From NCBI GenBank assembly GCA_018654575.1, contig JABILI010000011.1:1-51892 (forward strand): DNA of 51,892 nt. The letters run 5' to 3'. Positions within the stretch are counted from its first letter, which is position 1, and every line of letters starts with the position of its first letter. Position numbers and translations under genes: made by a program. This stretch comes from Porticoccaceae bacterium (lineage in GTDB: Bacteria; Pseudomonadota; Gammaproteobacteria; Pseudomonadales; Porticoccaceae). Shown here piece after piece: positions 18,404 to 50,705 of this stretch. The notes under the pieces are model-generated. The model made no database searches. It was not told the origin of the DNA and worked only from the letters and a program-made list of their open reading frames with translations.

Positions 18404-18427
18404 AAAACATTTACATTAAAATGTTTT
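18404..18427. promoter_or_regulatory. Inverted-repeat operator AAAACATT-N8-AATGTTTT (site 1)
   Basis: A perfect inverted repeat with arms 18404-18411 and 18420-18427 (matching extends one more base inward) in the divergent region between the racemase (-) and acyl-CoA ligase (+). The same arms and 8-base spacer recur at 20998-21021 and 50682-50705. It lies 65 bases before the ligase ATG and 127 before the racemase ATG, so it could control both. Confidence 0.75.
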
Positions 18428-18491
18428 TAGCAGTATTATTGAAGTACCTTCAGTTGATAAAACCACAAGTCTAGAATCCGGAAGAACCACT

Positions 18492-20216
18492 ATGTCAAAA
18501 TTCAGCGCGCCCATTGATCAAGCCATTAAAGCTGTCACTGCGCCTGGTTCTCCATTTGAAATAACCCAGTATCAGTCTCAGGGTGTTGACTACCGCATTT
18601 ACGCCAACGCCCCAAAAAACCTTATTGAACTTCTCGCTCCAGGGCGTGGTTTCACTGACCAAGAATTTATTATATACCAAGATCAACGCTGGACATTCAG
18701 CCACTTTCACCGTCAAACCGACCTTATTGCTGTCCAGCTAATCCGTCGATTTAAGATTCAAAAAGGCGATCGGATTGCCATTGCCATGCGTAATTATCCA
18801 GAGTGGATGGCCGCCTTTCTTGCCATAGTTTCAGTTGGCGCTGTTGCCGTGCCTCTCAACAGTTGGGGTGCAGGCAAAGAACTTCAGCAGAGCCTTGCAG
18901 AAGCCCGCTGTGGCCTAGTATTTTGCGACCAACAGCGTCTAAACATTATTCAACCACAAAATCACGGGCTAACATCGATTGTAGTGCGTCACGAAGGCGC
19001 CTTGCCTCAAGCCTGCCATAGCTACAATGATGTAATCAGTGACCAGAGTGTAGTGCAACTCTCAGCAAAAGATATCCGCGGAGTACTCTCAAGCATTGAG
19101 ATTGATACCCAAGACGAAGCAATGATAATGTTTACCTCGGGCACATCAGGAACACCAAAGGCCGCCTTATTTACGCACTTCAATTGCTGTCAGTCGATAA
19201 CCAACTTTGAGGCCGTAGGTGCTGCCGCCTATATGACCAACATCGACGCCTACACCAAACATCTTAATAGCGGCAGACCCTCCAAGGCTCTAATAACGGT
19301 ACCCTTATTTCATGTTAGTGGTTTATTTGCACAATTTCTACTAACACTGCGCGGTGGCAGGACCATGGTCTTGATGTACAAATGGGATCCGGCCGAAGCT
19401 TGCAACTTAATGACAGAAGAACAAATTACCATTTTTGTAGCTGCACCCTCTATGTTGCTAGATCTTGCTCGACACCCCAAATTTAGCTCTGTGGACACAA
19501 GCGTTATTAGCAATGTGAGTGGCGCAGGCGCAGCAACGCCCACAAAAGCAGCCCAGTTTCTCAAGGAAAGTTTTTCACAGTCGTTGCCAGGAACAGGCTG
19601 GGGAATGACCGAAACAGGTGCCGCGGGAACCTCATTCACCGGCTATTTTTATAACCTAAAACCCGGTTCTAGTGGGTTTTTAAACCCCATTGTGGATCTT
19701 CGTTTTTGTGATGAACGCGGGATAGAGCTAGAGGCTGGTGCTCCCGGAGAGATATGGATCAAAAGCCCCACCACCATTACCGGTTATACCAACAATCCAG
19801 ACGCTAATAAAAACGAATTTAAAGACGGTTGGTTTAAAACGGGTGACATCGGCTACTTAGATTCCGACAAATGTTTGTTCATCTGCGACCGCGCTAAAGA
19901 CATGGTAATCCGTGGCAGCGAGAATATCTTTCCGGTGGAAGTAGAAAACACAATCCAATCACTGCCCACTGTTATAGGTGCCTGTGGGTTTGCCATTCCC
20001 AGTGAGCGCTATGGCGAAGAATTAATGGTCGTGGTGCGGGTTGCCCGAGAGGATTTAGATCAAGTCGATGAGAAAATGATTCAAGATCACTGTCAAGAGA
20101 ACTTGGCAAAGTTCAAAGTGCCCAGCATTGTCATTGTTACCGATCAGGCGTTCCCGTTAAACGCAAGTAACAAGGTAGTAAAGAAGCAAGTTAAAGCGCT
20201 ATTTGGCCCAACCTAA
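18492..20216 (+). CDS. Acyl-CoA synthetase (AMP-forming ligase)
   Basis: A 574-residue adenylate-forming ligase that activates a carboxylic acid with ATP and CoA. Motifs in order: P-loop MFTSGTSGTPKAA, mid motif GTGWGMTETGAAGTSF, hinge region GWFKTGDIGYLD, GSENIFPVEVE, and the catalytic lysine motif NASNKVVKKQV near the C-terminus. All are intact and the length is normal for FadD-type enzymes. The first 90 residues are a longer than usual lead. It is preceded by operator site 1 and followed by a TetR gene, then paired acyl-CoA dehydrogenases. The context suggests it primes a side-chain or ring-fragment acid for beta-oxidation; it does not look especially like FadD3, so the substrate is open. 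Confidence 0.87.
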   Translation: MSKFSAPIDQAIKAVTAPGSPFEITQYQSQGVDYRIYANAPKNLIELLAPGRGFTDQEFIIYQDQRWTFSHFHRQTDLIAVQLIRRFKIQKGDRIAIAMRNYPEWMAAFLAIVSVGAVAVPLNSWGAGKELQQSLAEARCGLVFCDQQRLNIIQPQNHGLTSIVVRHEGALPQACHSYNDVISDQSVVQLSAKDIRGVLSSIEIDTQDEAMIMFTSGTSGTPKAALFTHFNCCQSITNFEAVGAAAYMTNIDAYTKHLNSGRPSKALITVPLFHVSGLFAQFLLTLRGGRTMVLMYKWDPAEACNLMTEEQITIFVAAPSMLLDLARHPKFSSVDTSVISNVSGAGAATPTKAAQFLKESFSQSLPGTGWGMTETGAAGTSFTGYFYNLKPGSSGFLNPIVDLRFCDERGIELEAGAPGEIWIKSPTTITGYTNNPDANKNEFKDGWFKTGDIGYLDSDKCLFICDRAKDMVIRGSENIFPVEVENTIQSLPTVIGACGFAIPSERYGEELMVVVRVAREDLDQVDEKMIQDHCQENLAKFKVPSIVIVTDQAFPLNASNKVVKKQVKALFGPT

Positions 20217-20319
20217 GCTCTAATCTGCGTATTTTACAGTCCGTCCCAGTACGGTAGCACGCTAAATTGTATAGAATGCCTAATTGTCGACATGCACCCA
20301 ACACTAAAAGTGAACAACT

Positions 20320-20937
20320 GTGACCGCTAAACGAACACAAGATAAAAATGGCCATCAAGCATTAAAGGCAAAAGCGACACGCGAAAAGATTCTTAACGCC
20401 GTTGTTATGCTAATTAATGAGTCTGGATACAGCTCTGCTAGTTCAACCGCTATCGCTAAAAAAGCGGGTATAACCTGGGGTGCGGTGCAGCACCATTTTG
20501 GTAACAAAGAAGAGATTTTGATCGCAGTAATGGAAATGTCTCGTGACTTTTACATTCAGTCACTGGATAAGACTGAGATGAGAAAAGGCACTTTGGAAGA
20601 ACGTGTTAGCCATTTTGTCGACAGCGTATGGGAGCACTACAAAAGCGACCTTTACTTTGCATTTTCAGAAATTGTCATGGCCACCCGAGGCGACAACAGC
20701 GACCTACCGCTGCGCCAAATTAGGGTTAACAATGGTCTAGACGAACATTTAAAAGGTATGGTTGAAATTTTTAATGGCTATAAAATCTCGCAGTCCCGTC
20801 TTAATGAAGCTCTTAGATTTACCCATCGTTTTTTGGGCGGATTTGCTATAGATCGTATTCTAGAGCCGAGCATGCCTTTTGAAGATATTCATATAGAGCG
20901 TATAAAACAACAACTTTTGGCTATTATTCACCACTAA
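20320..20937 (+). CDS. TetR-family transcriptional regulator (copy 1)
   Basis: A 205-residue repressor-type protein with a GTG start. The N-terminal helix-turn-helix is clear (residues about 22-66: LINESGYSSASSTAIAKKAG, then WGAVQHHFGNKEEIL). The C-terminal ligand domain is not assignable. It lies between the two genes that carry the identical AAAACATT-N8-AATGTTTT operators, so it is the leading candidate to bind them, with an acyl-CoA as likely inducer, in the way KstR2 controls steroid ring genes in actinobacteria. That link is inference; the palindrome differs from the KstR2 site. Confidence 0.85.
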   Translation: MTAKRTQDKNGHQALKAKATREKILNAVVMLINESGYSSASSTAIAKKAGITWGAVQHHFGNKEEILIAVMEMSRDFYIQSLDKTEMRKGTLEERVSHFVDSVWEHYKSDLYFAFSEIVMATRGDNSDLPLRQIRVNNGLDEHLKGMVEIFNGYKISQSRLNEALRFTHRFLGGFAIDRILEPSMPFEDIHIERIKQQLLAIIHH

Positions 20938-20996
20938 CAACATCACGCGCCACACCAATCAGGGTTCCATTACACCTAGCAATTAAACTAAATCGC

Positions 20997-21022
20997 AAAA
21001 ACATTGCAACTTAAATGTTTTT
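20997..21022. promoter_or_regulatory. Inverted-repeat operator AAAACATT-N8-AATGTTTT (site 2)
   Basis: Arms AAAAACATT (20997-21005) and AATGTTTTT (21014-21022) with an 8-base spacer, 54 bases before the first acyl-CoA dehydrogenase. Arms and spacing are the same as sites 1 and 3. A further half-site AAAAACATT lies at about 21049-21057 without a matching second arm. Confidence 0.75.
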
Positions 21023-21075
21023 AGGTGATAGTCGCCCTATGTGTATAGAAAAACATTATTGCTAGGAACAACATA

Positions 21076-22266
21076 ATGGAAACCATAGAAAAGTTCAGGC
21101 TAGACACTCGTGATTGGCTTATCGCCAACTGTCCTGAGTCACAGCGCCAACCGATCATCAAAGATCAACAGATATGGGGAGGGCGTCGCCGTAGTTTTTA
21201 CTGTGAAGATGCCAAGCTGTGGTTCGAGCGAATGAGAGACCGCGGTTGGACCGCTCCTTCTTGGCCAACCCAATACGGCGGCGGCGGTATGAGTTCAGAG
21301 CAGGCAAAAATACTTGACCAAGAAATGAAAGCCTTAGGTTGTCGCCCTGCCCTCTATGATATTGGCCTTTGGATGTTTGGACCGGCATTACTTGAGTACG
21401 GCACTGAAGAGCAGAAGCAAGAACATATACCAAAAATCGTGCGCGGCGAGATCCGCTGGGCCCAAGGGTACTCAGAGCCCTCAGCTGGTTCTGACCTGGC
21501 ATCACTTAAAACACGGGCCGAGGACAAAGGCGATCACTTTCTCGTCAACGGTACCAAAATGTGGACCACCCAGGGCGACAAGTCCGATTGGATCTTTTGC
21601 CTAGTCCGTACCGACAACGACGCTCCCAAACAACAAGGCATTAGTTTTTTGCTTATCGACATGGCAACAGAAGGCGTACTTGCAAGGCCCATGGAACTAA
21701 TCAACGGCGACCTCGAGTTTTGCCAGACCTTCTTTGACGACGTTAAAGTCCCCAAAAATAATCTTGTAGGTAAACTGAATGAAGGCTGGTCTGTAGCCAA
21801 AGCACTGCTTAAATACGAACGTAACATGATGAGTATCATGAGTTCTATTGTTGAAAAAGAAGAAGGCGACATTGTCGCCATCGCCAAGCACTACGTCGGT
21901 CTGGACAGCAGCGGTAAACTCGCTAACAACAGCCTACGCAGTCAGTTAACCGAGCACTTAATGCGCGCCCAAGGCGATGCCCTAAATGCCCTGCGCCTGT
22001 ACCAGCAACATAAAAGCGGCGTTGTTGATGGGGGGCTTGGGCTTACCTTGAAATATTTAAGCACCTCTGAACAACAACATAAAGACGAGCTATTGCTAGC
22101 CATTATGGGCAATCGCGGGTTGAGCTGGCACGACCCAATATTTTCTAAGAGTGAAAAAAAGACCGTTAAAAATTGGGCCTATAATAAAGCACACACTATT
22201 GCTGGCGGCACATCCGAAATTCAACTCAACATTATTGCCAAAAAGGCCCTCCAGTTACCCAGTTAA
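21076..22266 (+). CDS. Acyl-CoA dehydrogenase, pair member 1
   Basis: A 396-residue flavoprotein dehydrogenase that introduces an alpha,beta double bond into an acyl-CoA. Visible: the WAQGYSEPSAGSDLASL flavin/substrate motif, VNGTKMWTTQGDKSDW, FFDDVKVPKNNLVG and the C-terminal IAGGTSEIQLNI. It is followed after 38 bases by a second, different dehydrogenase. Such adjacent unequal pairs are typical of steroid-degrading alpha2beta2 enzymes such as FadE28-FadE29, where this type forms the larger partner. It carries operator site 2 in front. The family is certain; the heterotetramer is inferred from pairing. Confidence 0.87.
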   Translation: METIEKFRLDTRDWLIANCPESQRQPIIKDQQIWGGRRRSFYCEDAKLWFERMRDRGWTAPSWPTQYGGGGMSSEQAKILDQEMKALGCRPALYDIGLWMFGPALLEYGTEEQKQEHIPKIVRGEIRWAQGYSEPSAGSDLASLKTRAEDKGDHFLVNGTKMWTTQGDKSDWIFCLVRTDNDAPKQQGISFLLIDMATEGVLARPMELINGDLEFCQTFFDDVKVPKNNLVGKLNEGWSVAKALLKYERNMMSIMSSIVEKEEGDIVAIAKHYVGLDSSGKLANNSLRSQLTEHLMRAQGDALNALRLYQQHKSGVVDGGLGLTLKYLSTSEQQHKDELLLAIMGNRGLSWHDPIFSKSEKKTVKNWAYNKAHTIAGGTSEIQLNIIAKKALQLPS

Positions 22267-22304: not shown

Positions 22305-23444
22305 ATGAGTATGGTTTTAAACGAAGAACAACGTCTGTTGCAAGACACCATCGATGACTTTCTAAGCAGCAATGCCCCCATCGAACAGCTGCGGCACCTT
22401 AGAGACAGCCACGATGAGAAAGGCTATTCAATCGACCTCTGGCAACAGCTAACGGATCTGGGTATTCCCTCGATTCTCATGCCCGAAGAGTTTGGCGGCT
22501 TTGGGTTTGGTTTTAAAGGTCTGGGCGCTGTCATGCAGCAAATGGGCCGCAACCTAACAGCCTCACCGCTATTTTCCACCGTGGTACTGGGGGCCTCGAC
22601 GATTGAGTTGGGCGGAACAGAATCGCAACAAAAAGCTTTACTGCCAAGTATCTCCGCAGGGCAACTCACCCTGGCCCTGGCTGTTGACGAGACACATCAC
22701 CATCAGCCCCTTAACAGCGCTACTAGCCTGCTAGACCAAGATGGCCAGTTAATCATTACCGGCAAAAAGGTCTTTGTCTTAGACGGCCACAGTGCCGATA
22801 AGCTAGTGGTTGTGGCACGCAGTTCTGGCAATACTGGCGATCCAGAAGGTCTGTCACTGGTATTAGTTGATAGCGACGCTGCGGGTGTTCAAATAGACAG
22901 AACAAAATACATGGACGGCCGCAATGCCGCGAATATCATTTTTAACAATGTGCTTGTAAGTCACGATCAAGTCATTGGCGATCTAGGCAAAGCTCGCACA
23001 ATACTGCAAAAAGTGTTAGACCGAGGCGTCATTGCCATGTCTGCAGAAATGTTGGGCGGCTGCCAAGAGGTATTTGACCGAACCCTGCAATACCTGTGTG
23101 ACCGAGAGCAATTTGGCGTAAAGATTGGTACTTTTCAGGCCCTACAGCACCGCGCGGCACTAATGTTTTGCCAGATTGAACGAAGTAAATCTGCAGTACT
23201 CAGCGCCCTAGCGAGCATTGATGAAAACAGCTCTGACAGCTCATTACAGGCCAGTTTAGCTAAAACGCTTATTAACGACTGTTACCAGCACGTGAGCAAC
23301 GAGGCGATACAAATGCACGGAGGCATGGGTATTACCGACGAACTAGATATAGGTCTATTTTTAAAGCGCGCTAGAGTCAGTATGCAAATTTTAGGCGACA
23401 GTGATTTTCACAAAAACCGCTATGCTGAGTTAAACGGCTACTAA
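22305..23444 (+). CDS. Acyl-CoA dehydrogenase, pair member 2
   Basis: A 379-residue acyl-CoA dehydrogenase fold protein. The N-terminal helical domain (NEEQRLLQDTIDDFLSSNAP), FGGFGFGFKGLGAV and the C-terminal CDREQFGVKIGTFQALQHRA and AIQMHGGMGITDELDIG segments are clear. The mid-region equivalent of the EPxAGSD motif is degenerate here (LALAVDETHHH), as expected for the partner subunit of a heteromeric enzyme. It lies 38 bases after partner 1 and 31 before an SDR, in one operon. A homotetramer acting alone is less likely given the missing motif. Confidence 0.83.
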   Translation: MSMVLNEEQRLLQDTIDDFLSSNAPIEQLRHLRDSHDEKGYSIDLWQQLTDLGIPSILMPEEFGGFGFGFKGLGAVMQQMGRNLTASPLFSTVVLGASTIELGGTESQQKALLPSISAGQLTLALAVDETHHHQPLNSATSLLDQDGQLIITGKKVFVLDGHSADKLVVVARSSGNTGDPEGLSLVLVDSDAAGVQIDRTKYMDGRNAANIIFNNVLVSHDQVIGDLGKARTILQKVLDRGVIAMSAEMLGGCQEVFDRTLQYLCDREQFGVKIGTFQALQHRAALMFCQIERSKSAVLSALASIDENSSDSSLQASLAKTLINDCYQHVSNEAIQMHGGMGITDELDIGLFLKRARVSMQILGDSDFHKNRYAELNGY

Positions 23445-23475: not shown

Positions 23476-24243
23476 ATGAAAGAACAAACTTTAAAGGGCA
23501 AGGTGGCATTAATTACTGGCGGAGGTCAAGGTATCGGTCAAGGTATTGCGTTAGCCATGGCAGAGCGCGGCGCAAACGTGGTAGTAGTCGGTCGCACCTA
23601 CTCAAAATGCGAAAACACCTGCAAAATGATCGAGCAACGCTTTTCTGGGAAAGCCATCCCTAAGGCAGCTGATGTAGCTATGCATAAAGATCTCAAACGG
23701 ATTACTCAAGAAACAGTAGAAGAGTTCAAAACGATTGATATCTTAGTTAACAATGCAGTTGCAACCTCAATCGGCCCGCTGATAGATCAAAATGATGAAA
23801 ATGTCATACAAGCATTTATGGTCGGCCCTATGGCAACACTTAGGCTTATGCAGCTCTGTTATCCCTATTTAAAGCAACAAGGCGGGTCAATTATTAACAT
23901 GGCCAGTACAGCATCAAAACGGTGGGATATGTCTAACTACGGGGTCTACGCCGCTGAAAAAGATGCCATTAGAGCCCTAACCCGCGCTGCGGCTAGCGAA
24001 TGGGGGCCAGACAATATCAGAGCCAATAATATCCTCCCTCATGCAAGCTCGGCGGCCCTACAAAAATGGATGACGCATCGTCCTGAGGAAGCTGCCGAAT
24101 TTACTAAAAGTATCCCACTCCAGCGCGTAGGTGATTGCGAAACAGACATAGGACAATTTGTTGCTGTTCTTTGCTCGCCAGAATCATCCTATATCAGCGG
24201 GCAAAGTATTGCTTTAGATGGTGGTCAAGCATACATGAACTGA
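23476..24243 (+). CDS. Short-chain dehydrogenase/reductase (SDR)
   Basis: A 255-residue classical SDR with a very good ribosome site (AAGGAGG). Cofactor motif TGGGQGIGQGIA near residue 15, NNAV at about 92, and active site Y-A-A-E-K in YGVYAAEKDAIRAL; it ends in SGQSIALDGGQAYMN. It oxidises or reduces a hydroxyl/keto group with NAD(P). The position after two acyl-CoA dehydrogenases suggests a hydroxyacyl-CoA or ring-hydroxyl dehydrogenase in the same pathway. NNAV instead of NNAG is a small departure from consensus. Confidence 0.85.
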   Translation: MKEQTLKGKVALITGGGQGIGQGIALAMAERGANVVVVGRTYSKCENTCKMIEQRFSGKAIPKAADVAMHKDLKRITQETVEEFKTIDILVNNAVATSIGPLIDQNDENVIQAFMVGPMATLRLMQLCYPYLKQQGGSIINMASTASKRWDMSNYGVYAAEKDAIRALTRAAASEWGPDNIRANNILPHASSAALQKWMTHRPEEAAEFTKSIPLQRVGDCETDIGQFVAVLCSPESSYISGQSIALDGGQAYMN

Positions 24244-24251
24244 GGTTTGTT

Positions 24252-25682
24252 ATGAGATATCCAGCCAAACAAACAACGCAATGGCTCAAGCTGGTGCTCG
24301 GCAGTTTAATCCTATTTTTTATAGCTGCGCTGATGCTCTTTAATCCTGCCAGCCTAATCACTAGCCAGCAAGCTAAAAATGACGCACTAATTGCCGGAAG
24401 TATGGCCTATCACGTAGGAGTATCTGCCTACCTTTACGGCTATCCTATAATCGAAATGACTAGTCAAATGCACAACGAAACGCATTTAGTAGAAGAGGAT
24501 CAAGCAGTTTATGCCCCAGTTAATAAACTCTATCGCCTCAGTCATCTCATCAATCCTCAGACCGCAGGTAATTTAAGAGCACCTAATAGTGACACCTTGT
24601 ATTTTCACGGCTGGTACGACATTACCCAAGAACCTCTAATTATTCACACTCCTGACACAAAAGGACGCTACTTTACCATTGCAATAACCAACCTCTATGC
24701 TGAAGTTGTACACATTGGCCGCAGGACAACAGGCACGAAAGAGCGTTTATTCGCCCTAGTATCGCCCACCTGGAGCGGGACCCTGCCTGACAATGTCACA
24801 CCAATAATCACAGAAACCTCCAAGGGTTGGTTGCTGGGGAGGATGCTAGTCACGGGGCCAGACGATTTCGCCCGAGCAAACAGCCTTATGGAGCAAATTT
24901 GGTTAAAACCCTTAGCCAAATTTAACGGCCAACAGGGCGATAAAACAGTTGGGAAAATAAAGGCTGACAAACATGATTTTAAAGGATCTCTTAGTTTTTT
25001 TGCCGAACTTAATCGCACACTAAAAACATTACCTCTCCGAGCTGGAGAGGCAGCCCTATTAGCTCAATTTGATGAAATTGGTGTAGGTCCCAATGTAACC
25101 TTTGATGCCGATCTTCTCACTCCGCCTCAACGCAAAGGTTTGGAGCATGCGATAAAAGACGCTGAGGATATTATCCAGGCATCAGTACAGCGCACCATAA
25201 AGTCCACAAATGGCTGGATGATCTCAAAAGATATTGGAGTTTACGGTTATCGCTATATGCATCGTGCCTCTGTGGTCAAAGGAGGTTATGGCAATCTACC
25301 CGAGGAAAGCCTCTACCCTGCTGCTGTGTTCGATGAAAATGGTAACCTACTGAATGGCAGCGATAGATTTCGAGTTCACTTTAATCCCGAACAATTGCCA
25401 CCGGTTGATGGTTTCTGGTCACTCAGCGCATACAAACTTGAGGATGCCCAATTCGAGCCCAACAGCATCGACCGCTACAGCATTGGCAATTTAACTAAGG
25501 GACTAACGTACAACGAATTGGGCGGCCTGACCCTTGATTTACAGCATGAAATGCCGGCAGACACTTCCACTAATTGGCTGCCGATACCTAAAGGTCACTT
25601 CATGCTGGTCATGCGCCTTTATGAGCCCAAGCAAAACGTCTTAGATAATCAATGGATACCGCCGAGTATCGAGCGCCTCTAG
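24252..25682 (+). CDS. DUF1254/DUF1214 protein with N-terminal membrane anchor
   Basis: A 476-residue protein from ATG 24252, where GAGG precedes the start; an earlier in-frame start would run deep into the SDR gene. One membrane segment spans residues about 14-32 (LVLGSLILFFIAALMLF). The remainder has the DUF1254 pattern (YLYGYPIIEMT; NTLYRLS-like LYRLSHLINPQTAG; NSDTLYFHGWYDI) and a C-terminal DUF1214 half (PPVDGFWSLSAY; RYSIGNLTKGL; NWLPIPKGHFMLVMRLYEPK). The family is widespread in environmental bacteria, and no activity is established. It is probably periplasmic. Its TAG stop lies in a CTAG shared with the stop of the opposite Rieske gene. Confidence 0.85.
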   Translation: MRYPAKQTTQWLKLVLGSLILFFIAALMLFNPASLITSQQAKNDALIAGSMAYHVGVSAYLYGYPIIEMTSQMHNETHLVEEDQAVYAPVNKLYRLSHLINPQTAGNLRAPNSDTLYFHGWYDITQEPLIIHTPDTKGRYFTIAITNLYAEVVHIGRRTTGTKERLFALVSPTWSGTLPDNVTPIITETSKGWLLGRMLVTGPDDFARANSLMEQIWLKPLAKFNGQQGDKTVGKIKADKHDFKGSLSFFAELNRTLKTLPLRAGEAALLAQFDEIGVGPNVTFDADLLTPPQRKGLEHAIKDAEDIIQASVQRTIKSTNGWMISKDIGVYGYRYMHRASVVKGGYGNLPEESLYPAAVFDENGNLLNGSDRFRVHFNPEQLPPVDGFWSLSAYKLEDAQFEPNSIDRYSIGNLTKGLTYNELGGLTLDLQHEMPADTSTNWLPIPKGHFMLVMRLYEPKQNVLDNQWIPPSIERL

Positions 25683-26695
25683 TCCTGAGCTGACGATGGC
25701 GGAATAAACTGACCATACCATTTGCGAAACTTGGCAAAGGGTCCATCACCATCACAGAGCAATGGTCTTTCATAATAGATTTTGCGGTTCCAAATGATAA
25801 TATCCTCCTCCATTTGAGAACAAATATTGGCAATAATCGCATCACCAATACCCCCTGAAACTGTTTTGCCATCCACCTTTTTCTGCATGAAAGCGTACAT
25901 TGCACGAGCATGTTCAGAATGAACAGGAGTTAAATTAGCCAACAAGATCGTATCGCAAATACCAGAGAATTTAATCACGGACAATCCAGGGCCTGTGCTG
26001 AAGTTCTCAATAAATCCTTCGATTACCCCTCTGGGTGTTTCATTACGCGTTTTTAGTAACCCATGGCGAGTAAATTCACCAAACTCTTGTTTCTGCACAT
26101 CAGGAATATCATCAGTCCCATGGACAAAATGAAAATGTGCAGCATCTACTGCATTCTCACCAATTTCCTGCATGTGCGTACTGATCTCCCAGGTAAAACT
26201 TTTGATTTCACCCCACTCGTCATTTTCTAATGTAGCTTCAGAGACAACAGGTGGCTCATAGGTGGGAGCAATATCATCAGGATGATACCAAACCAAAATA
26301 CACTGGTTTATCTCTCGTACCTCATAGGACCGAATCACCTTTTCGCCGCGCGCCACTCTCGGAGGAAGGTTTTTGGCATAGGGAATGTGTTTACACTGTC
26401 CTTCCCCATTAAACTGCCATCCGTGAAAAGGACACACAATATTCTCACCATCCACCGCAGCAGCCGAACCTGCGTGTTCACGAATACCATAGCCCAAGTG
26501 AGCTCCCATATGGGCGCAGTAGGCATCAATTACCTTAGCGGCACCTGATTCAGTGCGAAAAATCACTAAATCTCGGTCAAAGTAGGTTATCGGCTTTGCT
26601 TCGCCGATGGCAAGTTCACTCGAATAGAGCACCTGAAACCAACCAAATGGCATCGCCAGTGGCACTCGGGGTGAATGTCGATCAGTCGCAATCAT
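25679..26695 (-). CDS. KshA-type Rieske non-heme iron oxygenase (copy 2)
   Basis: About 338 residues from ATG 26695, preferred because GAGGAA lies 6 bases upstream; a TTG at 26716 would add seven residues. The Rieske half-motifs are C-x-H and C-x2-H (CAHMGAHLG and CPFHGWQF), separated by 25 residues, again longer than usual. The mononuclear iron site fits E-x3-D-x2-H-x4-H (ENAVDAAHFHFVH). The C-terminal RKWYGQFIPP matches copy 1. It is about one-third the window away from copy 1 and clearly diverged, so they likely act on different positions or substrates. It is transcribed away from an SDR gene that lies just upstream (44 bases), and the two may be co-transcribed. Confidence 0.85.
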   Translation of the reverse strand: MIATDRHSPRVPLAMPFGWFQVLYSSELAIGEAKPITYFDRDLVIFRTESGAAKVIDAYCAHMGAHLGYGIREHAGSAAAVDGENIVCPFHGWQFNGEGQCKHIPYAKNLPPRVARGEKVIRSYEVREINQCILVWYHPDDIAPTYEPPVVSEATLENDEWGEIKSFTWEISTHMQEIGENAVDAAHFHFVHGTDDIPDVQKQEFGEFTRHGLLKTRNETPRGVIEGFIENFSTGPGLSVIKFSGICDTILLANLTPVHSEHARAMYAFMQKKVDGKTVSGGIGDAIIANICSQMEEDIIIWNRKIYYERPLLCDGDGPFAKFRKWYGQFIPPSSAQD

Positions 26696-26739
26696 TCTAA
26701 ATTCCTCTATTTTCAAGTTGTGCTTAACGTCTACTGGGT

Positions 26740-27501
26740 TTATTTAACAGCGGCGCCACCATCAACAGATAATAACTGTCCAGTGATAAATGATGCTTTG
26801 TCTGAACAAAGAAACACCACCGCCTCAGCTACCTCAGAAGGTTCACCAATGCGACTCATCGCTGCTGAGCGCTCAAGTGCATCTGCAAGTTTTGGTTGTT
26901 CTTTAAAATATTTCTCGATTCCAGGTGTACGAATAACTCCTGGAGACACTGCATTAATGCGGATACCCTTTTTCCCATACTCCACTGCCGAACTCTTGGT
27001 CAGCACATTAACACCACTCTTGGCCGCTGCATAAGCCGTGTTATAGGGCTGTCCTCTCAATGAAGAATTAGAGGATATATTTACAATACTACCCCCCTTA
27101 CCTGAATCCAGCATAGCTCCAACTTCGTGTTTTAAACATAACCATGTATTGGTTAGACACATCTCTAGTGTGTCGTCGAATACGCTGCGTTCAAATTCAT
27201 GAATAGGTCCAGAACCACGACTGACAGCTGCGCTATTGCAGGCGATATCAAGTCTGCCAAAAATAGTAATAGCAGCATCAATCATCGCCTTTACTTGCTC
27301 TTCATTGCTAACATCCGCACAGACAAAGTGTGCCTCTCCCCCTGCTTCTTTGATTATATCAACCGTCTCTTGTCCAGTTTCGGCGTTAAAATCAGCTACG
27401 ATGACCTTTGCCCCTTCACGAGCAAAAGCTTCGCAAATAGCACGGCCAATACCTACACCACCACCGGTGACTAGTCCTACTTTGTTATCTAATAGATACA
27501 T
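26740..27501 (-). CDS. SDR family oxidoreductase
   Basis: A 253-residue classical SDR: TGGGVGIGRAIC for the cofactor, D-x-N-A-E after beta-2 (favours NAD), CNSAAVSRGSG in place of the usual NNAG, and active site Y-A-A-A-K in TAYAAAKSGVNVL. The C-terminus SFITGQLLSVDGGAAVK is standard. It lies 44 bases upstream of Rieske copy 2 in the same direction and is divergent from TetR copy 2, whose operator-like repeats sit in front of it. Likely a hydroxyl dehydrogenase acting on the Rieske product or substrate; that is inference. Confidence 0.85.
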   Translation of the reverse strand: MYLLDNKVGLVTGGGVGIGRAICEAFAREGAKVIVADFNAETGQETVDIIKEAGGEAHFVCADVSNEEQVKAMIDAAITIFGRLDIACNSAAVSRGSGPIHEFERSVFDDTLEMCLTNTWLCLKHEVGAMLDSGKGGSIVNISSNSSLRGQPYNTAYAAAKSGVNVLTKSSAVEYGKKGIRINAVSPGVIRTPGIEKYFKEQPKLADALERSAAMSRIGEPSEVAEAVVFLCSDKASFITGQLLSVDGGAAVK

Positions 27502-27553
27502 TTAAAGAATCTCTTATAACACCCAAAACTATGGGAAGCTTGTACTTTATTTA

Positions 27554-27585
27554 ACTATGGTATATTTTTGTACTATAGTATATTT
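27554..27585. promoter_or_regulatory. Direct repeat ACTATrGTATATTT x2 with TACTATAGTA palindrome
   Basis: ACTATGGTATATTT (27554-27567) and ACTATAGTATATTT (27572-27585) are 18 bases apart with one mismatch; the second copy overlaps a perfect palindrome TACTATAGTA (27571-27580). They lie between the divergent SDR and TetR copy 2, where an autoregulatory operator is expected. Confidence 0.5.
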
Positions 27586-27636
27586 ATTGAGAAAATTCTA
27601 ACAATTTGATTACTCAAACAGACGAGGAAATTTATT

Positions 27637-28260
27637 TTGGAAAACTTACAGTTAGTGGTAAAAGAAGGTATCCGCGAACGTAAGAAACGTATGACCCATG
27701 AACGTATCTGCGATGTGGCCTCTAGACTTTTTATAGAACAGGGTTATCCAAATACCACCATTGATGCCATCGCTGATCTCTCCGATATTTCCAAGCCTAC
27801 TTTTTTCAACTATTTCTCATCAAAACTCGCGGTCCTTCATGAGATTATCGACATTATGGATGAGCAATTCGTTAGCTATATTACTGATGAATTAGATAAC
27901 CAAGACAGCACCTTAGAGCGACTGCAACATGTGATGCGTCGATCAGCTTTATTTATTGAAGGCGCCCCTGAACTAACCCGATTGACATTAGTCGAAGGGA
28001 TTGGCGCCATTGGCGACATCCACAAGTCACAAGCTCGATTTAAGCGAATGCATGGCGCAATGGGCCAGCTCATTAAATTGGGGATCACCCAAGGTGATGT
28101 ACGAAAAGATTATCCCTTAGAACTTCTAATACAAACTGTCTTTGGCAGTTATCTATATGCCTTACTAACATGGCTCACCGCACAGGAACACAGCTTGGCA
28201 ATAAGCCTGGAGAATACTGCGGTTTTTCTTGCTGAGTCGATCAGCCCAAGAGCCTTATGA
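27637..28260 (+). CDS. TetR-family transcriptional regulator (copy 2)
   Basis: A 207-residue regulator, most likely from a TTG at 27637 with GAGGAAA upstream; the first in-frame ATG would be at 27691, inside the helix before the DNA-binding domain. The helix-turn-helix is clear: LFIEQGYPNTTIDAIADLSD, then ISKPTFFNYFSSK. The C-terminal domain is of the acyl/drug-sensing helical type without a recognisable ligand. It lies between an SDR/Rieske pair (-) and a P450/SDR/SDR series (+), so it probably controls both through the AT-rich repeats in front of it. Confidence 0.84.
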   Translation: MENLQLVVKEGIRERKKRMTHERICDVASRLFIEQGYPNTTIDAIADLSDISKPTFFNYFSSKLAVLHEIIDIMDEQFVSYITDELDNQDSTLERLQHVMRRSALFIEGAPELTRLTLVEGIGAIGDIHKSQARFKRMHGAMGQLIKLGITQGDVRKDYPLELLIQTVFGSYLYALLTWLTAQEHSLAISLENTAVFLAESISPRAL

Positions 28261-28303
28261 GGCGTCCTAAAGAGCGCAATACACAAAAGGAGCGACACTA
28301 CAA

Positions 28304-29677
28304 ATGATGACCATCACCAGTGATTTAGATTACAAAACACGACCCAATAACTACGAATTAAATCATATTCCTGGTACTAAAGGCCTTCCTCTGATCGGCA
28401 ATGCTCTGCCCTTTATCAAAGATATGCTCGCAGATTCCAGAGGTCGTGTGGAAAAGTTTGGCAAAGTCTCTCGTATCGTGATCGCGGATCAAACTGGATT
28501 GTTAGTGGTTGGTGCAGACAACTTTAAAACCATTATGATCGACCGAGATAATAACTTCTCCAATGAAATGGCCTATGCACAACAACTAGGAGCCTTTTAT
28601 CGCGGCGGACTCTTGCTTCTTGATTTTGATGAACATCGAATGCAACGCAGGATCATGCAACAAGCATTTAAATTTAGCACCATGAAACATTACATGGAAC
28701 CGCTCAATGAGCGTTTTAGGGATTCCCTAATTAACTGGCCCAAGGATACAGAGCTGAAGTTTTATTTTGAAATAAAGAAAGTTCTCCTAGATATTGGCAG
28801 CAAAATATTTTTGGGCGAGAAAGAATTCACCCAAGAGTCAGAGATGGTTAACCAAGCATTTTCAGATGTCAGCGGTGGATTGGGCTCTGTATTAAGATTT
28901 AACCTTATTGGCACCAAATTTCATCGAGGGCTTCAAGGCAAATCTGCCTTGGCTGACTATGTGGCACGTAAAATTCCGCACCGCCGAGCTGGCGATGGCG
29001 AAGATGTACTGAGCCACATGTGTCGAGAACGAACTGAAAAAGGCGAGTTTTTTAGTGACAAAGAGATTATTCAGCACACTACATTTTTGCTCTTTGCCGC
29101 TCACGATACAACCACCAGCGTGCTCAGTCATATGGTCATGTACGTAGGCTCACGACCTGAGTATCAGAATCGTCTGCGCCAGGAGTGTTTGGCACTTGGA
29201 ACTGATGAGCTTAGCTATGAAGATCTTGATAAATTACCTGAATTTGAACATTGCTTCGAGGAGGTTCTGAGGCTGCATCCTCCAGTACCAATGAGTATGC
29301 GGCGAACTATTAGAGAAACTATACTCGGTGGCCACGCAATCCCCCCTGATACCCTATTGTTCATGCCAACTTGCTACAACCAACGTGACCCCGAATACTG
29401 GGCTGATCCCGATGTATTTGATCCTAGCAGATTCAGTGAGCCCAGAAATGAGCAGAAAAATCATAGCTTCTGCTACCACCCTTTTGGTGGTGGTGCTCAT
29501 AAATGTATCGGCATGCACTTTGCATTAATGCTATCCAAATGTTTCATTTTTCATTTATTACGCAATTTTGAAGTCAGCACGCCGCCTGACTATGCCCCCG
29601 TTTTGGATTGGGTACCCATTCCCAAACCATCTGATGGCGTACCTATTCGCCTAAAAGCTATTAACAGCTCAACATAA
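28304..29677 (+). CDS. Cytochrome P450
   Basis: A 457-residue soluble bacterial P450 monooxygenase. Landmarks: proline-rich start IPGTKGLPLIGNALPF at 22-37, oxygen-activation helix AAHDTT at 265-270, E320-x2-R323 (EEVLR), and heme loop FGGGAHKCIG with cysteine ligand C401. The heme loop and N-terminus resemble the CYP136/CYP120/CYP51-like groups more than the cholesterol C26-hydroxylases CYP125/142. No ferredoxin or ferredoxin reductase gene flanks it; SDR genes follow at 26 and 38 bases. The likely role is hydroxylation of a hydrophobic cyclic substrate. The subfamily call is from memory and uncertain. Confidence 0.9.
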   Translation: MMTITSDLDYKTRPNNYELNHIPGTKGLPLIGNALPFIKDMLADSRGRVEKFGKVSRIVIADQTGLLVVGADNFKTIMIDRDNNFSNEMAYAQQLGAFYRGGLLLLDFDEHRMQRRIMQQAFKFSTMKHYMEPLNERFRDSLINWPKDTELKFYFEIKKVLLDIGSKIFLGEKEFTQESEMVNQAFSDVSGGLGSVLRFNLIGTKFHRGLQGKSALADYVARKIPHRRAGDGEDVLSHMCRERTEKGEFFSDKEIIQHTTFLLFAAHDTTTSVLSHMVMYVGSRPEYQNRLRQECLALGTDELSYEDLDKLPEFEHCFEEVLRLHPPVPMSMRRTIRETILGGHAIPPDTLLFMPTCYNQRDPEYWADPDVFDPSRFSEPRNEQKNHSFCYHPFGGGAHKCIGMHFALMLSKCFIFHLLRNFEVSTPPDYAPVLDWVPIPKPSDGVPIRLKAINSST

Positions 29678-29703
29678 CCTCACAATAAGGAGAGATCTAA
29701 GAC

Positions 29704-30504
29704 ATGATTTTAGATGCATTTAGATTGGACAAAAAAATTGCCATTGTGACCGGTGCGGGCAAAGGCATTGGTAAAGATATAGCGATCAGCTTTGGAGAAA
29801 TGGGCGCATCAGTCGTCTGCGTCGCCAGAAGTATTGAGGATATCGAAGACACCGCTGAGCAAATCCGATCATTTGGAAGCAGCGCATTAGCGGTAGTCTG
29901 TGACGTCACCAAAGAAGAACAGCTAAAGAACTTAGTTGATCAAGTGTTAAAGGAATTCAAAGGCATTGATATTCTTATTAACAATGCCGGCGCTCCAGGT
30001 CGCGGATGGGGACCCATTGAAGAGGTCGACATGTCTCGTTTTGAGCATACTCTGCGAATAAATCTTACATCCGCCTACACATTAACTCACTTGTGCACTC
30101 CAGCACTACGAGACAGTGGCGGTACCATCGTCAATGTCTCATCAGCTCTAAGCTGGATGGTCGACAAGAACTTCTCTTCCTATGCCGCGGCTAAAGCAGG
30201 CATGAATCAAATGACTAAGGTTATGTCCTATGAGCTTTCCCCCGGTGTTCGAGTTAATGCTGTCGCACCAGGTGCTATTGAAACCCCGAGCATGGAATAC
30301 ATTACCAGTAACCCAAAACGTAAAGCTGAAGCTGAGCGCTGGATTCCTCTTCAACGGTTGGGCCAACCAAGGGATATTGCCCTTGGAGTACTTTATTTAG
30401 CCTCTCCTGCCAGCGGCTTTGTTAGTGGAAAAATACTAGAAATAGACGGTGGTATGCAAGCCATACCCGGAACCGCAATCCAAGAAATAATCGCCAAAAG
30501 GTAA
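29704..30504 (+). CDS. SDR family oxidoreductase
   Basis: A 266-residue classical SDR: TGAGKGIGKDIAISFG cofactor loop, INNAGAPGRGWG, catalytic Ser in NVSSALSW and Y-A-A-A-K in SSYAAAKAGMNQM. The C-terminus is slightly extended past the usual DGG end. It is 26 bases after the P450 with its own GGAG site, and 38 bases before another SDR, so P450 and both SDRs form one transcription unit. The natural reading is oxidation of the hydroxyl group put in by the P450, but the substrate is unproven. Confidence 0.85.
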   Translation: MILDAFRLDKKIAIVTGAGKGIGKDIAISFGEMGASVVCVARSIEDIEDTAEQIRSFGSSALAVVCDVTKEEQLKNLVDQVLKEFKGIDILINNAGAPGRGWGPIEEVDMSRFEHTLRINLTSAYTLTHLCTPALRDSGGTIVNVSSALSWMVDKNFSSYAAAKAGMNQMTKVMSYELSPGVRVNAVAPGAIETPSMEYITSNPKRKAEAERWIPLQRLGQPRDIALGVLYLASPASGFVSGKILEIDGGMQAIPGTAIQEIIAKR

Positions 30505-30542
30505 TAAAAAGGTAGTAAAAAGAGCAAAGGAGCTTAGCAGGT

Positions 30543-31304
30543 ATGAATCGTTTTACAGACAAGGTGGTAATCGTCACCGGCGCCGCATCAGGTATCGGCA
30601 AGGCATCTGCACAAAGAATCGCCTCAGAGGGCGGAGTCGTCGCCTGCATGGATATCCAAGAGGATGCCCTATCTGATGCCGTGAATGGCATAAATAACAA
30701 CCCAGATACCAGTGGTGCAGCATTTAGCTACGTCTGCGACATTGGTGACCCAAAATCCACAAAAAAGGTAGTGGCCGCAGTTATCAAGGATCACAAAAAT
30801 CTCAATGCACTCTGTAATATTGCTGGTATTTTGAAGCTCCAAAACACCCTAGAAGTGTCCCTAGAAGATTGGAATCGCATATTAGCCGTCAACCTAACGG
30901 GGACATTTTTTATGTGCCAAACCGCACTGCCCCATTTAATTAAAACTAAGGGTAGCATTGTCAACATGACCTCTACCGCTGCACTAGGAAGCCACCCCTG
31001 GACAGCTGCCTATGCCGCCTCAAAAGGTGGGCTTCTATCGGTCACTAAAACGATTTCGATTGAGTTTGGCAAACAGGGTATCAACGCTAATTCTCTCAGT
31101 CCCGCTTCAGTGGAGACACCCATGAGTAACAATGCCAAGTTACCCGAGGGCGCGGACTACGATCTACTGAAAAAGATACTGCCATTTGATGGTATTGTGC
31201 GTCCCGCTTCTGATGTGGCGAGCCTGGTGGCCTTTTTAGCTTCCGATGATGCCGTTCATATCAACGGTATTGACGTGAGAATTGATGGTGGAATGATGAC
31301 CTAG
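30543..31304 (+). CDS. SDR family oxidoreductase
   Basis: A 253-residue classical SDR: TGAASGIGKASAQRI, acidic MDIQED after beta-2 (NAD preference likely), CNIAGILK in the NNAG position, MTSTAALGSHPW and Y-A-A-S-K in AAYAASKGGLLSV. It ends in INGIDVRIDGGMMT. Last gene of the P450-SDR-SDR unit; it converges with the crotonase gene only 18 bases downstream, and no terminator hairpin is visible between them. Similar in pattern to 3-oxoacyl/hydroxysteroid dehydrogenases; not assignable further. Confidence 0.85.
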   Translation: MNRFTDKVVIVTGAASGIGKASAQRIASEGGVVACMDIQEDALSDAVNGINNNPDTSGAAFSYVCDIGDPKSTKKVVAAVIKDHKNLNALCNIAGILKLQNTLEVSLEDWNRILAVNLTGTFFMCQTALPHLIKTKGSIVNMTSTAALGSHPWTAAYAASKGGLLSVTKTISIEFGKQGINANSLSPASVETPMSNNAKLPEGADYDLLKKILPFDGIVRPASDVASLVAFLASDDAVHINGIDVRIDGGMMT

Positions 31305-31322
31305 CAGAACAACGAAACCTTG

Positions 31323-32120
31323 TTATTTAGCTTGCCATTGAGGTTTTCTTTTCTCCATAAACGCGGTGAGGCCCTCTTTGATGTCACGGCTTTGTAACAT
31401 AACCTCTAATCGGTCAAATTGCCCATCTTTTTGGGCCTGCTGCAATTCATCAAGATTAGAGGTATTCAACCCCTCCATTACCGCTTGTTTGGTCGCTTGA
31501 ATAGCAAGGGGTGCACACTGAATAATCTTCTCAGCAATACCAACAGCTGTACTCATTAATTCATTTTTAGGCACCACCTTATTCACAAAACCTAAACGAT
31601 GGCCTTCTTGAGCGGTTACCGGGTCGGCGGTTAATAGAATCCCCATCGCCGGCTTTAAACCAATTTGACGCGCCAATCGATGCATACCACCAGCCACTGC
31701 TGCCGCTCCAATCTTAGGTTCTGGCAATCCAAATACAGCCTCTTTAGCGGCAACGATAATATCCGCCGCTAAGGCCACCTCAAAGCCGCCACCCAGAGCC
31801 AAGCCATTAACAGCGGCAATAATGGGCTTATAGCAACCTGTACGCGACGTTAAACCGCCATAGCCACTATCTGGCAAGACATAATCATCCGCCACTTCTG
31901 CGTTAGCCATCATGCTAATATCACCGCCAACGCTAAACGCTTTATTGCCACTGCCAGTAACAATGGCAACCCATAAGCTATCATCAGCATCAAATGCATC
32001 AAGAGCCGCAGCCATTTCAAAGGATGTTGCTGGGCTTAATGCGTTTAAGACCTCGGGCCTATTTATCGTAATAGTGCAGATATGACCTTTATGTTCGACT
32101 TGTATCAATTCATAGTTCAT
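31323..32120 (-). CDS. Enoyl-CoA hydratase/isomerase (crotonase family)
   Basis: A 265-residue crotonase. The N-terminal VEHKGHICTITINRPEVLNA, oxyanion hole loops FSVGGDISMM and GLALGGGFEVALAADI, and the acidic residue in FGLPEPKIGAA are all present, as in ordinary enoyl-CoA hydratases. It hydrates a trans-2-enoyl-CoA or acts on a related thioester. Last of a leftward three-gene unit, sulfatase-nitroreductase-crotonase, with gaps of 34 and 26 bases. Unlike the crotonase at 15145, it does not resemble EchA20. Confidence 0.86.
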   Translation of the reverse strand: MNYELIQVEHKGHICTITINRPEVLNALSPATSFEMAAALDAFDADDSLWVAIVTGSGNKAFSVGGDISMMANAEVADDYVLPDSGYGGLTSRTGCYKPIIAAVNGLALGGGFEVALAADIIVAAKEAVFGLPEPKIGAAAVAGGMHRLARQIGLKPAMGILLTADPVTAQEGHRLGFVNKVVPKNELMSTAVGIAEKIIQCAPLAIQATKQAVMEGLNTSNLDELQQAQKDGQFDRLEVMLQSRDIKEGLTAFMEKRKPQWQAK

Positions 32121-47702: not shown

Positions 47703-47739
47703 CGCCTTAACCAGGCTTGCTGATCCTGAGCTGCCAGAT

Positions 47740-47885: not shown

Positions 47886-48037
47886 ACCAACCGTTTCATC
47901 TATCGACGAAAGCCAAAATTGTACAGGTTACTTGGCTGGCGGAATTTTGTATGTCATACGCAATATAAACTCACGTAAAAAATACGGCAAGAAATGATAT
48001 ATTTTAGTTACTAGGCACTCACTCAGCGAGCCAATAA
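47886..48037. other. Non-coding scar between two gene relics
   Basis: I see no gene, repeat or hairpin in this stretch. It probably derives from the interior of the decayed genes on each side, but no similarity can be read. Confidence 0.3.
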
Positions 48038-48259
48038 GATAGCGTTTATTATGAGGCTCTAGATGAAAATTATTTTAGCCCAGCAGAACAGGTGATTATT
48101 GCGCTAGGGGACAAGGCCAACCGATCATTGTTCAACAGAATACAAACCACAGGCATTCCCGTTGTGCAGATCGGCGACTGTCGAGACGTAGGCTATATTC
48201 ATGGAGCTATTGCTGACGCGCGAGCTGCAGTAATAAAACTAAACCAAGGTATCAGCTAA
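48038..48259 (+). pseudogene. Decayed C-terminal tail of a second FadH/OYE-type gene
   Basis: The plus frame reads AEQVIIALGDKANRSLFNRI, then TGIPVVQIGDCRDVGYIHGA, IADARAAVIKL and a TAA at 48257. This parallels the end of the intact reductase at 40402 (QVIIAMGAEENLSLYEQIG, VIGDCAEVGYIHGAIQTARE). An in-frame stop at 48035 precedes it and there is no start or ribosome site. The final 21 bases overlap the 3' end of the SDR on the other strand. Confidence 0.82.
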
Positions 48260-49006: not shown

Positions 49007-49110
49007 ATTGAACGTCTCAATCAATGCACTATTATCTAGACCCTGAGCCCAGCGCACAGGATGGCTTGAATAATAGCATTGCAACTCTCCAAACCATTAC
49101 TGCATACGGA

Positions 49111-49157
49111 CTAGCTTAGAGATAAACTGAACCCTAAGGGCTTTATCTCTAGGCTAG
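49111..49157. promoter_or_regulatory. Long imperfect hairpin between divergent SDR and MaoC genes
   Basis: CTAGCTTAGAGATAAA (49111-49126) pairs with TTTATCTCTAGGCTAG (49142-49157): 16 pairs with one G-T. The 15-base loop itself contains CCC-TAA-GGG. No T-run follows. Its position 65 bases before MaoC and 105 before the SDR suits a shared operator or a small mobile-repeat relic. Confidence 0.55.
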
Positions 49158-49221
49158 TAATGATAGCATTTACCTTTAAGTAAAATAAGCCAACCCACAT
49201 TTTAACGCAGAAGGGATACCC

Positions 49222-49680
49222 ATGAGTGCCACAGTGTTTAACCATCCAAGAGACTTACTAGAGGCTACAGGGACCCTTTTGGGACCTACAGACTATATTA
49301 CGATAGATCAGCAACGAATCAACCTGTTTGCCGAAGCGACTGGAGACCACCAATGGATCCATGTAGACCCGGAACGGGCCGCAAAGAGTGATTTTGGCGC
49401 CACCATTGCTCACGGTTATCTAACCCTGTCGCTGGCAAGCTTTTTCCTTCCTCAGATGATGCAAATCGACAATGTCACTATGGGTATTAACTATGGCACC
49501 AACAATGTGCGTTTCCCCTCCGTCGTAAGGGTTAATTCAAGGCTTAGGGGACGGGGGGAGATCATTCAGGTCGACGAAGCTAAGGGCGGCATTCGCTCAG
49601 TTGTTCGTATCACCATTGAACTAGAGGGCAGTGATCGTCCGGCCTGTGTATTGGAGACGATCAGTCTTTCTTACAGTTAA
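49222..49680 (+). CDS. MaoC-like dehydratase (single hot-dog domain)
   Basis: A 152-residue hot-dog protein with the hydratase-2 motif FAEATGDHQWIHVDPERA, containing the catalytic Asp and His, followed by IAHGYLTLSL. It hydrates enoyl-CoA with R specificity or dehydrates the reverse way. The ribosome site AGAAGGGA is well placed. It is a single gene, convergent with the amidohydrolase-like gene 32 bases downstream. Length and motifs are typical of the small MaoC group, including Mycobacterium NodN-like members. Confidence 0.87.
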   Translation: MSATVFNHPRDLLEATGTLLGPTDYITIDQQRINLFAEATGDHQWIHVDPERAAKSDFGATIAHGYLTLSLASFFLPQMMQIDNVTMGINYGTNNVRFPSVVRVNSRLRGRGEIIQVDEAKGGIRSVVRITIELEGSDRPACVLETISLSYS

Positions 49681-49712
49681 TTTACTTGGCAGCGTTTAGT
49701 TTTAACCTCTAA

Positions 49713-50582
49713 TTATAATTTAAACACACGCTTCGCGTTTTCACGCAGAAACTTGGGCCATACCTCGCCTCTAAAGGGCACATTAACCATGTCTGAAAAA
49801 ATACGCTCAAGAGACAAGCCCATAGGGAAATAACCGGCATACATTATTTTGTCTGCGCCTCGAGTATTGGCAAATTTCACGATATTCTCGGGGTAGTGCT
49901 TAGGTGCGAAAGCACTGGTCATATAATACAGATTAGGATACTTCAACATTAGTTTCCAGGCTAGTTCAGTCCATGGCTCGCCGCCATGACGCATCACCAC
50001 TTTAAGCTCTGGGAAAAACCAGCATATCTCGTCTAGGTGTTCTACTTTTTGAGGCTCCATAGGAATACGCGGGCCCGGCACCCCGACACAGGGACAAAAG
50101 GGAATATCTAGGTCGACACAGGTCACAAAAATCGGGTACCAACGCTTGTCGCTGAGAGACACCTGAGGGCAGAGGCCCGAAGGAAAGGCAGTTACCGCTT
50201 TAATATCGTACTTCTCTTTAAGGCGGCGGATTTTGCGCACCTCTTCCATTCCATTGTTAGGGTTGCAGTCATAACAACCAAAGAAACGATCTGGATGTTT
50301 TAGCACCGCTTCGTTTTGAGACTCATACTTGTCTTCGTCAACGCCCACCATCGCTTGGGCAATACCAAATTCGTCCATTTTTTCAATGGTGTAGGCCAGA
50401 TAGTCGTCTTGCAGGCCCGTATTAGGAATATCCTTGAACATATACTGAGCAGGCATCTTGAACATCTGCCGACTCTCTTCATCCATTAATAATGGCTTTA
50501 TGAAGTCGTAATAGTCAGAGGTTTCTTGATTCGGTACCGCCAACATTAAGTCGATGATTCCAATATTCTCAGGCATAGCCAT
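49713..50582 (-). CDS. Amidohydrolase-fold protein lacking the usual metal ligands
   Basis: About 289 residues from ATG 50582 (ATG 50576 also possible; a TTG at 50648 would add an unlikely lead). The overall pattern is amidohydrolase-2: TIEKMDEFGIAQAMVGVDED, FGCYDCNPNNG, VMRHGGEPWTELAWKLM, and ADKIMYAGYFPMGLSLERIF. But the N-terminal H-x-H is replaced by IIDLMLAVP, and the late GSD-P aspartate position reads AGYFP. I recall a mycobacterial subfamily with the same start, so this looks like a natural variant and not a broken gene. The function is unknown. It is preceded by operator site 3, shared with the acyl-CoA ligase and dehydrogenase genes. Confidence 0.83.
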   Translation of the reverse strand: MAMPENIGIIDLMLAVPNQETSDYYDFIKPLLMDEESRQMFKMPAQYMFKDIPNTGLQDDYLAYTIEKMDEFGIAQAMVGVDEDKYESQNEAVLKHPDRFFGCYDCNPNNGMEEVRKIRRLKEKYDIKAVTAFPSGLCPQVSLSDKRWYPIFVTCVDLDIPFCPCVGVPGPRIPMEPQKVEHLDEICWFFPELKVVMRHGGEPWTELAWKLMLKYPNLYYMTSAFAPKHYPENIVKFANTRGADKIMYAGYFPMGLSLERIFSDMVNVPFRGEVWPKFLRENAKRVFKL

Positions 50583-50681
50583 AGCTTTAAATTTCCCGTG
50601 TTGATGGCATCTATAGATACCAAACCAATGTAGTTTACCACTGCACAATAGTTGTAGTGTCAGCGGCTATTAATTCAATTA

Positions 50682-50705
50682 AAAACATTTGTATAGCAAT
50701 GTTTT
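50682..50705. promoter_or_regulatory. Inverted-repeat operator AAAACATT-N8-AATGTTTT (site 3)
   Basis: Arms 50682-50689 and 50698-50705 with an 8-base spacer, 100 bases before the amidohydrolase-like ATG and 45 bases after the GMC stop (both on the minus strand). Arms and spacing are identical to sites 1 and 2, about 30 kb away. Confidence 0.75.

Follow-up and report, generated by a model that had tools for sequence, protein, structure and literature searches.

A conserved 24-base inverted repeat and its probable TetR-family partner outline a putative steroid-catabolism regulon in Porticoccaceae and related gammaproteobacteria

We analysed a stretch of 51,892 nucleotides from a Porticoccaceae bacterium (assembly GCA_018654575.1, contig JABILI010000011.1), hereafter the window. 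It contains a perfect inverted repeat, AAAACATT-N8-AATGTTTT, at positions 18404, 20998 and 50682, two copies of which lie on either side of a gene for a TetR-family regulator, here TetR1. The repeats (operators 1 to 3) and the genes under or near them are as follows.

12049..13140, minus strand: KshA-like 3-ketosteroid 9alpha-hydroxylase oxygenase, without operator (PF19298, 186 bits)
15145..15897, minus strand: enoyl-CoA hydratase family, EchA20-like (NF005925 equivalog, 360.4 bits, cut-off 260)
15943..17016, minus strand: FMN NMO/FabK-like protein (PF03060; FabK structures as relatives)
17123..18379, minus strand: CoA-transferase family III (PF02515)
18404..18427: operator 1, perfect match, in the divergent promoter between the CoA-transferase III/NMO/EchA20-like genes (minus) and ligase-tetR (plus)
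18492..20216, plus strand: acyl-CoA ligase (best family CasG steroid-24-oyl-CoA synthetase, NF052580, 342.9 of 750 bits, below cut-off)
20320..20937, plus strand: TetR1, TetR-family regulator, proposed operator binder (PF00440, 43.6 bits, cut-off 24)
20998..21021: operator 2, perfect match, between tetR and the acyl-CoA dehydrogenase operon
21076..22266, plus strand: acyl-CoA dehydrogenase a, PimC-like (TIGR03204, 244 bits, below cut-off)
22305..23444, plus strand: acyl-CoA dehydrogenase b, PimD/IpdE2-like (TIGR03203 and NF050027, below cut-off)
23476..24243, plus strand: SDR oxidoreductase, after the dehydrogenase pair (PF13561)
49713..50648, minus strand: amidohydrolase-2 family, under operator 3 (PF04909)
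50682..50705: operator 3, perfect match, upstream of the amidohydrolase-2 gene (minus) and after a GMC oxidoreductase gene

A pattern scan recovered all three 8-8-8 repeats that an earlier note on this DNA had reported by eye, and its remark that there is no other full copy holds for the whole assembly (2,419,146 bases in 103 contigs, completeness 97.55). When up to three mismatches are allowed, the window holds four matches (three perfect, one with three mismatches) against 0.56 +/- 0.74 expected, and four or more were reached in none of 100 shuffles. Perfect 8-8-8 inverted repeats of any sequence number four in the window; three of them have the arm AAAACATT. Genome-wide, five matches have at most two mismatches: the three perfect ones, C29:3165-3188 with one mismatch and C33:7782 with two. 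Since the reversed control pattern likewise gives five at this level (none without mismatch), a two-mismatch match is to be regarded as noise unless otherwise supported; the C33 site lies inside an open reading frame (ORF) and was set aside as background. The one-mismatch site on contig C29 ends 43 bases before a 3-ketosteroid delta1-dehydrogenase (kstD) gene. Among solved structures the nearest to its product is a 3-oxosteroid 1-dehydrogenase (7p18, E=6e-153), and the top NCBIfam models are those of 3-ketosteroid dehydrogenases, with scores short of the respective cut-offs (550 of 789). From the end of operator 2 to the acyl-CoA dehydrogenase pair there are 54 bases.

Taken with the comparative results below, the three repeats and the fourth site before kstD are very probably operators of a TetR1 dimer, which would govern a small regulon for steroid catabolism. 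The predicted structure of TetR1 is an all-helical TetR fold (pLDDT 86.3) that matches TetR structures, and the protein carries the helix TWGAVQHHFG.

Site and regulator were looked for in 390 genomes of the same order, own genome included (G codes denote genomes, L codes fetched loci). Perfect sites were found in 12 genomes (16 sites), the reversed control at one site in all 390. A common, random occurrence of the motif, which by the earlier note would have told against a regulon, is not what these genomes show. Homologs of TetR1 (E up to 1e-20, the threshold also used for the second regulator, TetR2) occur in 21 genomes, among them 10 of the 12 with a perfect site (both, site only, regulator only, neither: 10/2/11/367; Fisher p=1.1e-12). 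The helix WGAVQHHFG is present in 12 of these 21 genomes, and 10 of the 12 have a perfect site (10/2/2/376, p=2.2e-16); it was read in homologs of the 21 genomes and of G147 and G064. Because related species are counted separately, all these p-values overstate independence. In G174, another helix-bearing genome, a site with one mismatch lies at a distance of 3.5 kb from tetR. On a TetR tree of 28 rows, the perfect-site label requires 4 changes against a shuffled mean of 9.6 (0 of 500 shuffles as low).

Two genomes, G064 and G147, have a perfect site without a TetR1 homolog at threshold. The G064 site overlaps an ORF end with no relatives of 46 reference proteins nearby and was dismissed as background. 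In G147 (660 contigs) the site is identical to that of G042, and the best TetR match has an E-value of 3.6e-16. G042 (also L185) is a metagenome-assembled genome titled Klebsiella pneumoniae but placed in the window's order; besides the site it carries a TetR1 homolog and a gene resembling kstD, and its title looks wrong.

These figures bear on the idea that the sites are chance repeats or a structural or terminator element. The palindrome is A+T-rich, and the equality with the control in the own genome at two mismatches would suit such an origin; still, the excess of perfect sites over the control across genomes, the arms that are conserved while flanks diverge and the absence of terminator-like structures at the three window operators make it extremely improbable. 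Chance is contradicted by the co-occurrence with TetR1, and a terminator or hairpin by the lack of such structures at the window sites.

Another candidate binder is TetR2, encoded at 27637, or an unlinked factor, with TetR1 a mere neighbour of the sites. Homologs of TetR2 occur in 10 of the 390 genomes, 7 of which have a perfect site (7/5/3/375, p=3.6e-10), so that TetR2 too correlates with the motif, as part of the same steroid island; moreover, the sites of LSUCC0057 (see below) are not beside its TetR1. Against this, the three genomes with TetR2 and no TetR1 (G149, G150, G366) have no perfect site, while three of the five with the TetR1 helix and no TetR2 do (G042, G129, G317), and in many lineages sites flank TetR1 or are situated in its own promoter region. 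TetR2 was rejected on the former comparison, and a regulator other than TetR1 is quite unlikely. The TetR regulon predicted by the earlier note is supported, with TetR1 tracking the motif better than TetR2; it is read here as a regulon for steroid genes and not for acyl-CoA genes in general, and the predicted acyl-CoA responsiveness is plausible.

Loci from named genomes, 80 of 175 confirmed relatives, were also compared. They were split post hoc, by homology rank and record title, into 40 loci of closer homologs (L148-L186 and L223) and 40 others. The closer loci (672,066 bases) hold 20 perfect, 11 one-mismatch and 22 two-mismatch sites, the reversed control none in any class, and 25 of the 40 have a site with at most one mismatch; at least 13 of them duplicate genomes of the 390-genome set. 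The remaining 40 loci (600,723 bases), most of which bear the title Myxococcota or Deltaproteobacteria, have no site. Site and TetR homolog are both present in Litorivivens lipolytica CECT 8654 and Parahaliea aestuarii S2-26.

A site matrix was built from the window and 60 chosen loci (L085, L115, L120 and L135-L139 are among those left out), which gave 67 distinct sites: 23 perfect, 19 with one mismatch and 25 with two, part of the last being there by chance. The matrix reads AAAACATT[T/g]-N6-[A/c]AATGTTTT. Since sites were gathered with the eight-base arms as query, positions 9-16 alone are free evidence; at position 9, 70% of the perfect set have T and 22% have G. With three mismatches this refined pattern finds 10 sites in the own genome and 11 for the control, so weak sites cannot be called from it.

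Conservation can be followed in G003 (SAR92 clade NIOZ-UU62) and G027 (Porticoccaceae UWMA-0313), whose TetR1 proteins are 90% and 92% identical to that of the window. G003 has three perfect sites and G027 four, each in addition to a one-mismatch site before kstD. The operator 1 block is kept in both and in L150, where arms persist in diverging flanks, and the 24-mer of operator 2 is identical in all three. At the place of operator 3 both G003 and G027 have a perfect site with a different spacer. There, kstD, the GMC gene, operator 3 and the amidohydrolase fall within one 19-kb stretch, which suggests that contig C29 probably adjoins the right end of the window. The earlier note had linked a distant amidohydrolase gene to the CoA pathway; the gene is hardly distant, since in these relatives it lies within 19 kb together with the kstD operon and that operon's own site.

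In more remote relatives (G001, G021, G023 and G193, TetR identity 45-47%) one perfect site is found in the divergent promoter between the ligase and IpdC-EchA20 genes, and tetR lies between the ligase and the dehydrogenase pair, a layout shared by L152, L153 and L168. This divergent promoter retains the site at 45-53% TetR identity. Halieaceae-type loci and Litorivivens have one- and two-mismatch sites beside tetR. Further sites are placed between tetR and a P450 gene; in L171 and L182 a perfect one precedes the P450. The solved structures nearest to the L182 enzyme identify it as CYP51 (E=2e-123). Ten other ORFs (nine loci, plus L119, which represents one genome with L183) match this enzyme at 56-85%, the P450 of the window at 25% only. 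A CYP51-type sterol 14alpha-demethylase gene stands beside the TetR homolog or a site in L170, L171, L172, L176, L178, L181, L182 and L183. Within a steroid-catabolic regulon, CYP51 is unexpected.

Several observations weigh against this reading of the sites. The motif is kept at orthologous promoters, where the earlier note had suggested looking, in most relatives examined, with the exception of LSUCC0057 (G169, TetR1 identity 47%): no site with up to four mismatches lies within 10 kb of its tetR, orthologous promoter included. This genome has the ligase/IpdC-EchA20 arrangement. Its sites are elsewhere: a perfect one, at a distance of 39 kb, precedes a ligase gene, and one with a single mismatch precedes a pair of acyl-CoA dehydrogenase genes. 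In G198 the helix is present and no site was found at up to two mismatches. Eleven of the 21 genomes with a TetR1 homolog have no perfect site; G051 and other such homologs carry different helices. Perfect-site rows cluster on the TetR tree, yet they do not form one clade, and several long branches meet there. In Halieaceae-type loci the perfect site precedes a luciferase-like monooxygenase gene (PF00296) and has kstD on its other side, and sites before kstD have two mismatches. Target modules differ between families, so that the targets do not reveal the ligand. Finally, contig C12 bears HsaC-, HsaA- and HsaD-like genes (below cut-offs), a FadD3-family ligase gene above cut-off and a PF01144 gene taken as ipdA-like from its genomic place, and has no site at up to three mismatches. 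The regulon is thus partial with respect to hsa-like, fadD3-family and ipdA-like genes.

Most members of the TetR family act as repressors and are released by small molecules. If TetR1 acts in this manner, as a repressor rather than an activator, it would cover its promoters when steroid is absent. At operator 1 it would lie over a putative -35 box: the operator overlaps the -35 of a sigma70-like pair, TTTACA-18-TATTAT (10 of 12 positions match), and two promoter-like pairs were found against 0.7 +/- 1.1 in shuffles, which is weak support. The sole promoter-like pair at operator 2 is on the opposite strand, and none was found at operator 3. Blocked in this way would be both divergent operons (ligase-tetR on one side, CoA-transferase/IpdC-like/EchA20-like on the other), the dehydrogenase operon, kstD and the amidohydrolase gene, with operon limits as predicted here. 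As a member of the ligase-tetR unit, tetR would also regulate itself. TetR1 would be released by a product of steroid breakdown, most probably the CoA thioester that a ligase of the pathway makes. Such a thioester is favoured, by a little, over free steroid or a steroid acid because the ligase gene adjoins tetR.

The regulator is best read as KstR2-like in its working, in Gammaproteobacteria and with a different operator. KstR2 of Mycobacterium and Rhodococcus, a different phylum, is a TetR repressor of the C/D-ring (HIP) regulon; its operator motif is AnCAAGnnCTTGnT, unlike that of TetR1. The regulon proposed here includes kstD but, in contrast to the KstR2 regulon, not fadD3-family or ipdA-like genes; IpdC-like and EchA20-like genes have the site. 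PMC6678751 and PMC8700777 describe KstR2 as released by HIP-CoA, and Table 1 of PMC5380842 has no kstR2 entry for its two proteobacteria, Comamonas testosteroni CNB-2 and Steroidobacter denitrificans.

Like TetR1, KstR belongs to the TetR family; kstD is among its targets, as is predicted for TetR1. Its operator, TnnAACnnGTTnnA, is different, and TetR1 was rejected as a KstR (NF033703, 29.5 bits, cut-off 280). EdcR of Caenibius tardaugens is a proteobacterial TetR repressor of steroid (estradiol) genes; its putative operator, a palindrome of 23 bases, lies over the promoter. That operator, TnnCnnTACnAnTnGTAnnGnnA, shares no core with TetR1 sites when compared by eye with the site matrix, and EdcR differs in its gene set and its ligands, estradiol and estrone.

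Bacillus FadR, a TetR-fold protein with an acyl-CoA ligand (stearoyl-CoA complex 3whc), ranks among the closest matches of TetR1 in both sequence and fold, and several site-bearing targets are acyl-CoA enzymes. TetR1 might accordingly be a generic FadR/PsrA-like regulator answering to ordinary long-chain acyl-CoA, the steroid genes being incidental. We consider this unlikely: TetR1 falls below the FadR family cut-off (NF053878, 50.1 bits, cut-off 200), and the recurrent site-bearing targets are EchA20-like, IpdC-like, kstD and CYP51 genes. The fold match does not discriminate, as KstR2, EthR, FadR and others lie within about 1 Z of one another, which makes the fold search uninformative on the ligand.

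It is an evenly balanced proposition that one TetR and a nearly invariant 24-base operator form a general sterol/steroid switch across several families of the order, reaching Solimonas/Nevskia-type and a few alphaproteobacteria, as a gammaproteobacterial counterpart of KstR/KstR2. The protein-operator pair would be fixed and target modules exchanged: IpdC/EchA20/acyl-CoA dehydrogenase in SAR92/Porticoccaceae, kstD with luciferase-like monooxygenase and CYP51 in Halieaceae. Halieaceae and Spongiibacteraceae are named as steroid degraders in PMC5790920. Judged by titles and abstract starts, no paper among the open-access matches listed describes such a regulon, and a search with one arm sequence gave nothing on it among the matches listed. 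The mechanism itself is conventional. A defined repressor-operator pair in named strains makes steroid regulation directly testable, and the 24 bases can serve as a tag for steroid genes whose function is not known, the amidohydrolase gene being one.

As to the genes themselves, family profiles agree with the earlier calls of ligase, TetR, acyl-CoA dehydrogenase and amidohydrolase. The supposed racemase belongs to CoA-transferase family III (PF02515); its true start is probably about 100 nt inside the called ORF, and orthologs in G027 and G003 have 385 aa. NF005925 is presumably the EchA20 family. From its FabK-type relatives, and with IpdC described as FabK-like in PMC5380842, the product of 15943..17016 appears to be IpdC-like. 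The window ligase was rejected as FadD3 because it scores 231 and the C12 ligase passes the FadD3-family cut-off (NF005801, 700 vs 657 bits). Judged by gene content, the HsaA-, HsaC- and HsaD-like and FadD3-family genes of C12 included, the source organism, related to the marine SAR92 group, would be a steroid degrader; these C12 genes also speak for a steroid regulon.

On contig C29 a thiolase frame between the SDR gene and kstD (2985-3149) ends after 54 residues, where the thiolase of G003 has 400 aa. The same contig has, at 5622-5645, a half-intact site with three mismatches before a FAD-binding gene, whose G027 ortholog has a perfect upstream site; this suggests operator turnover. In the window, a second module (25679-32120) includes a KshA-like gene, SDR genes, TetR2 (27637) and a P450 gene. 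A MoxR-DUF58-VWA-BatD operon at 2887-9884, which we take to be of Bat type, is unrelated to the operators.

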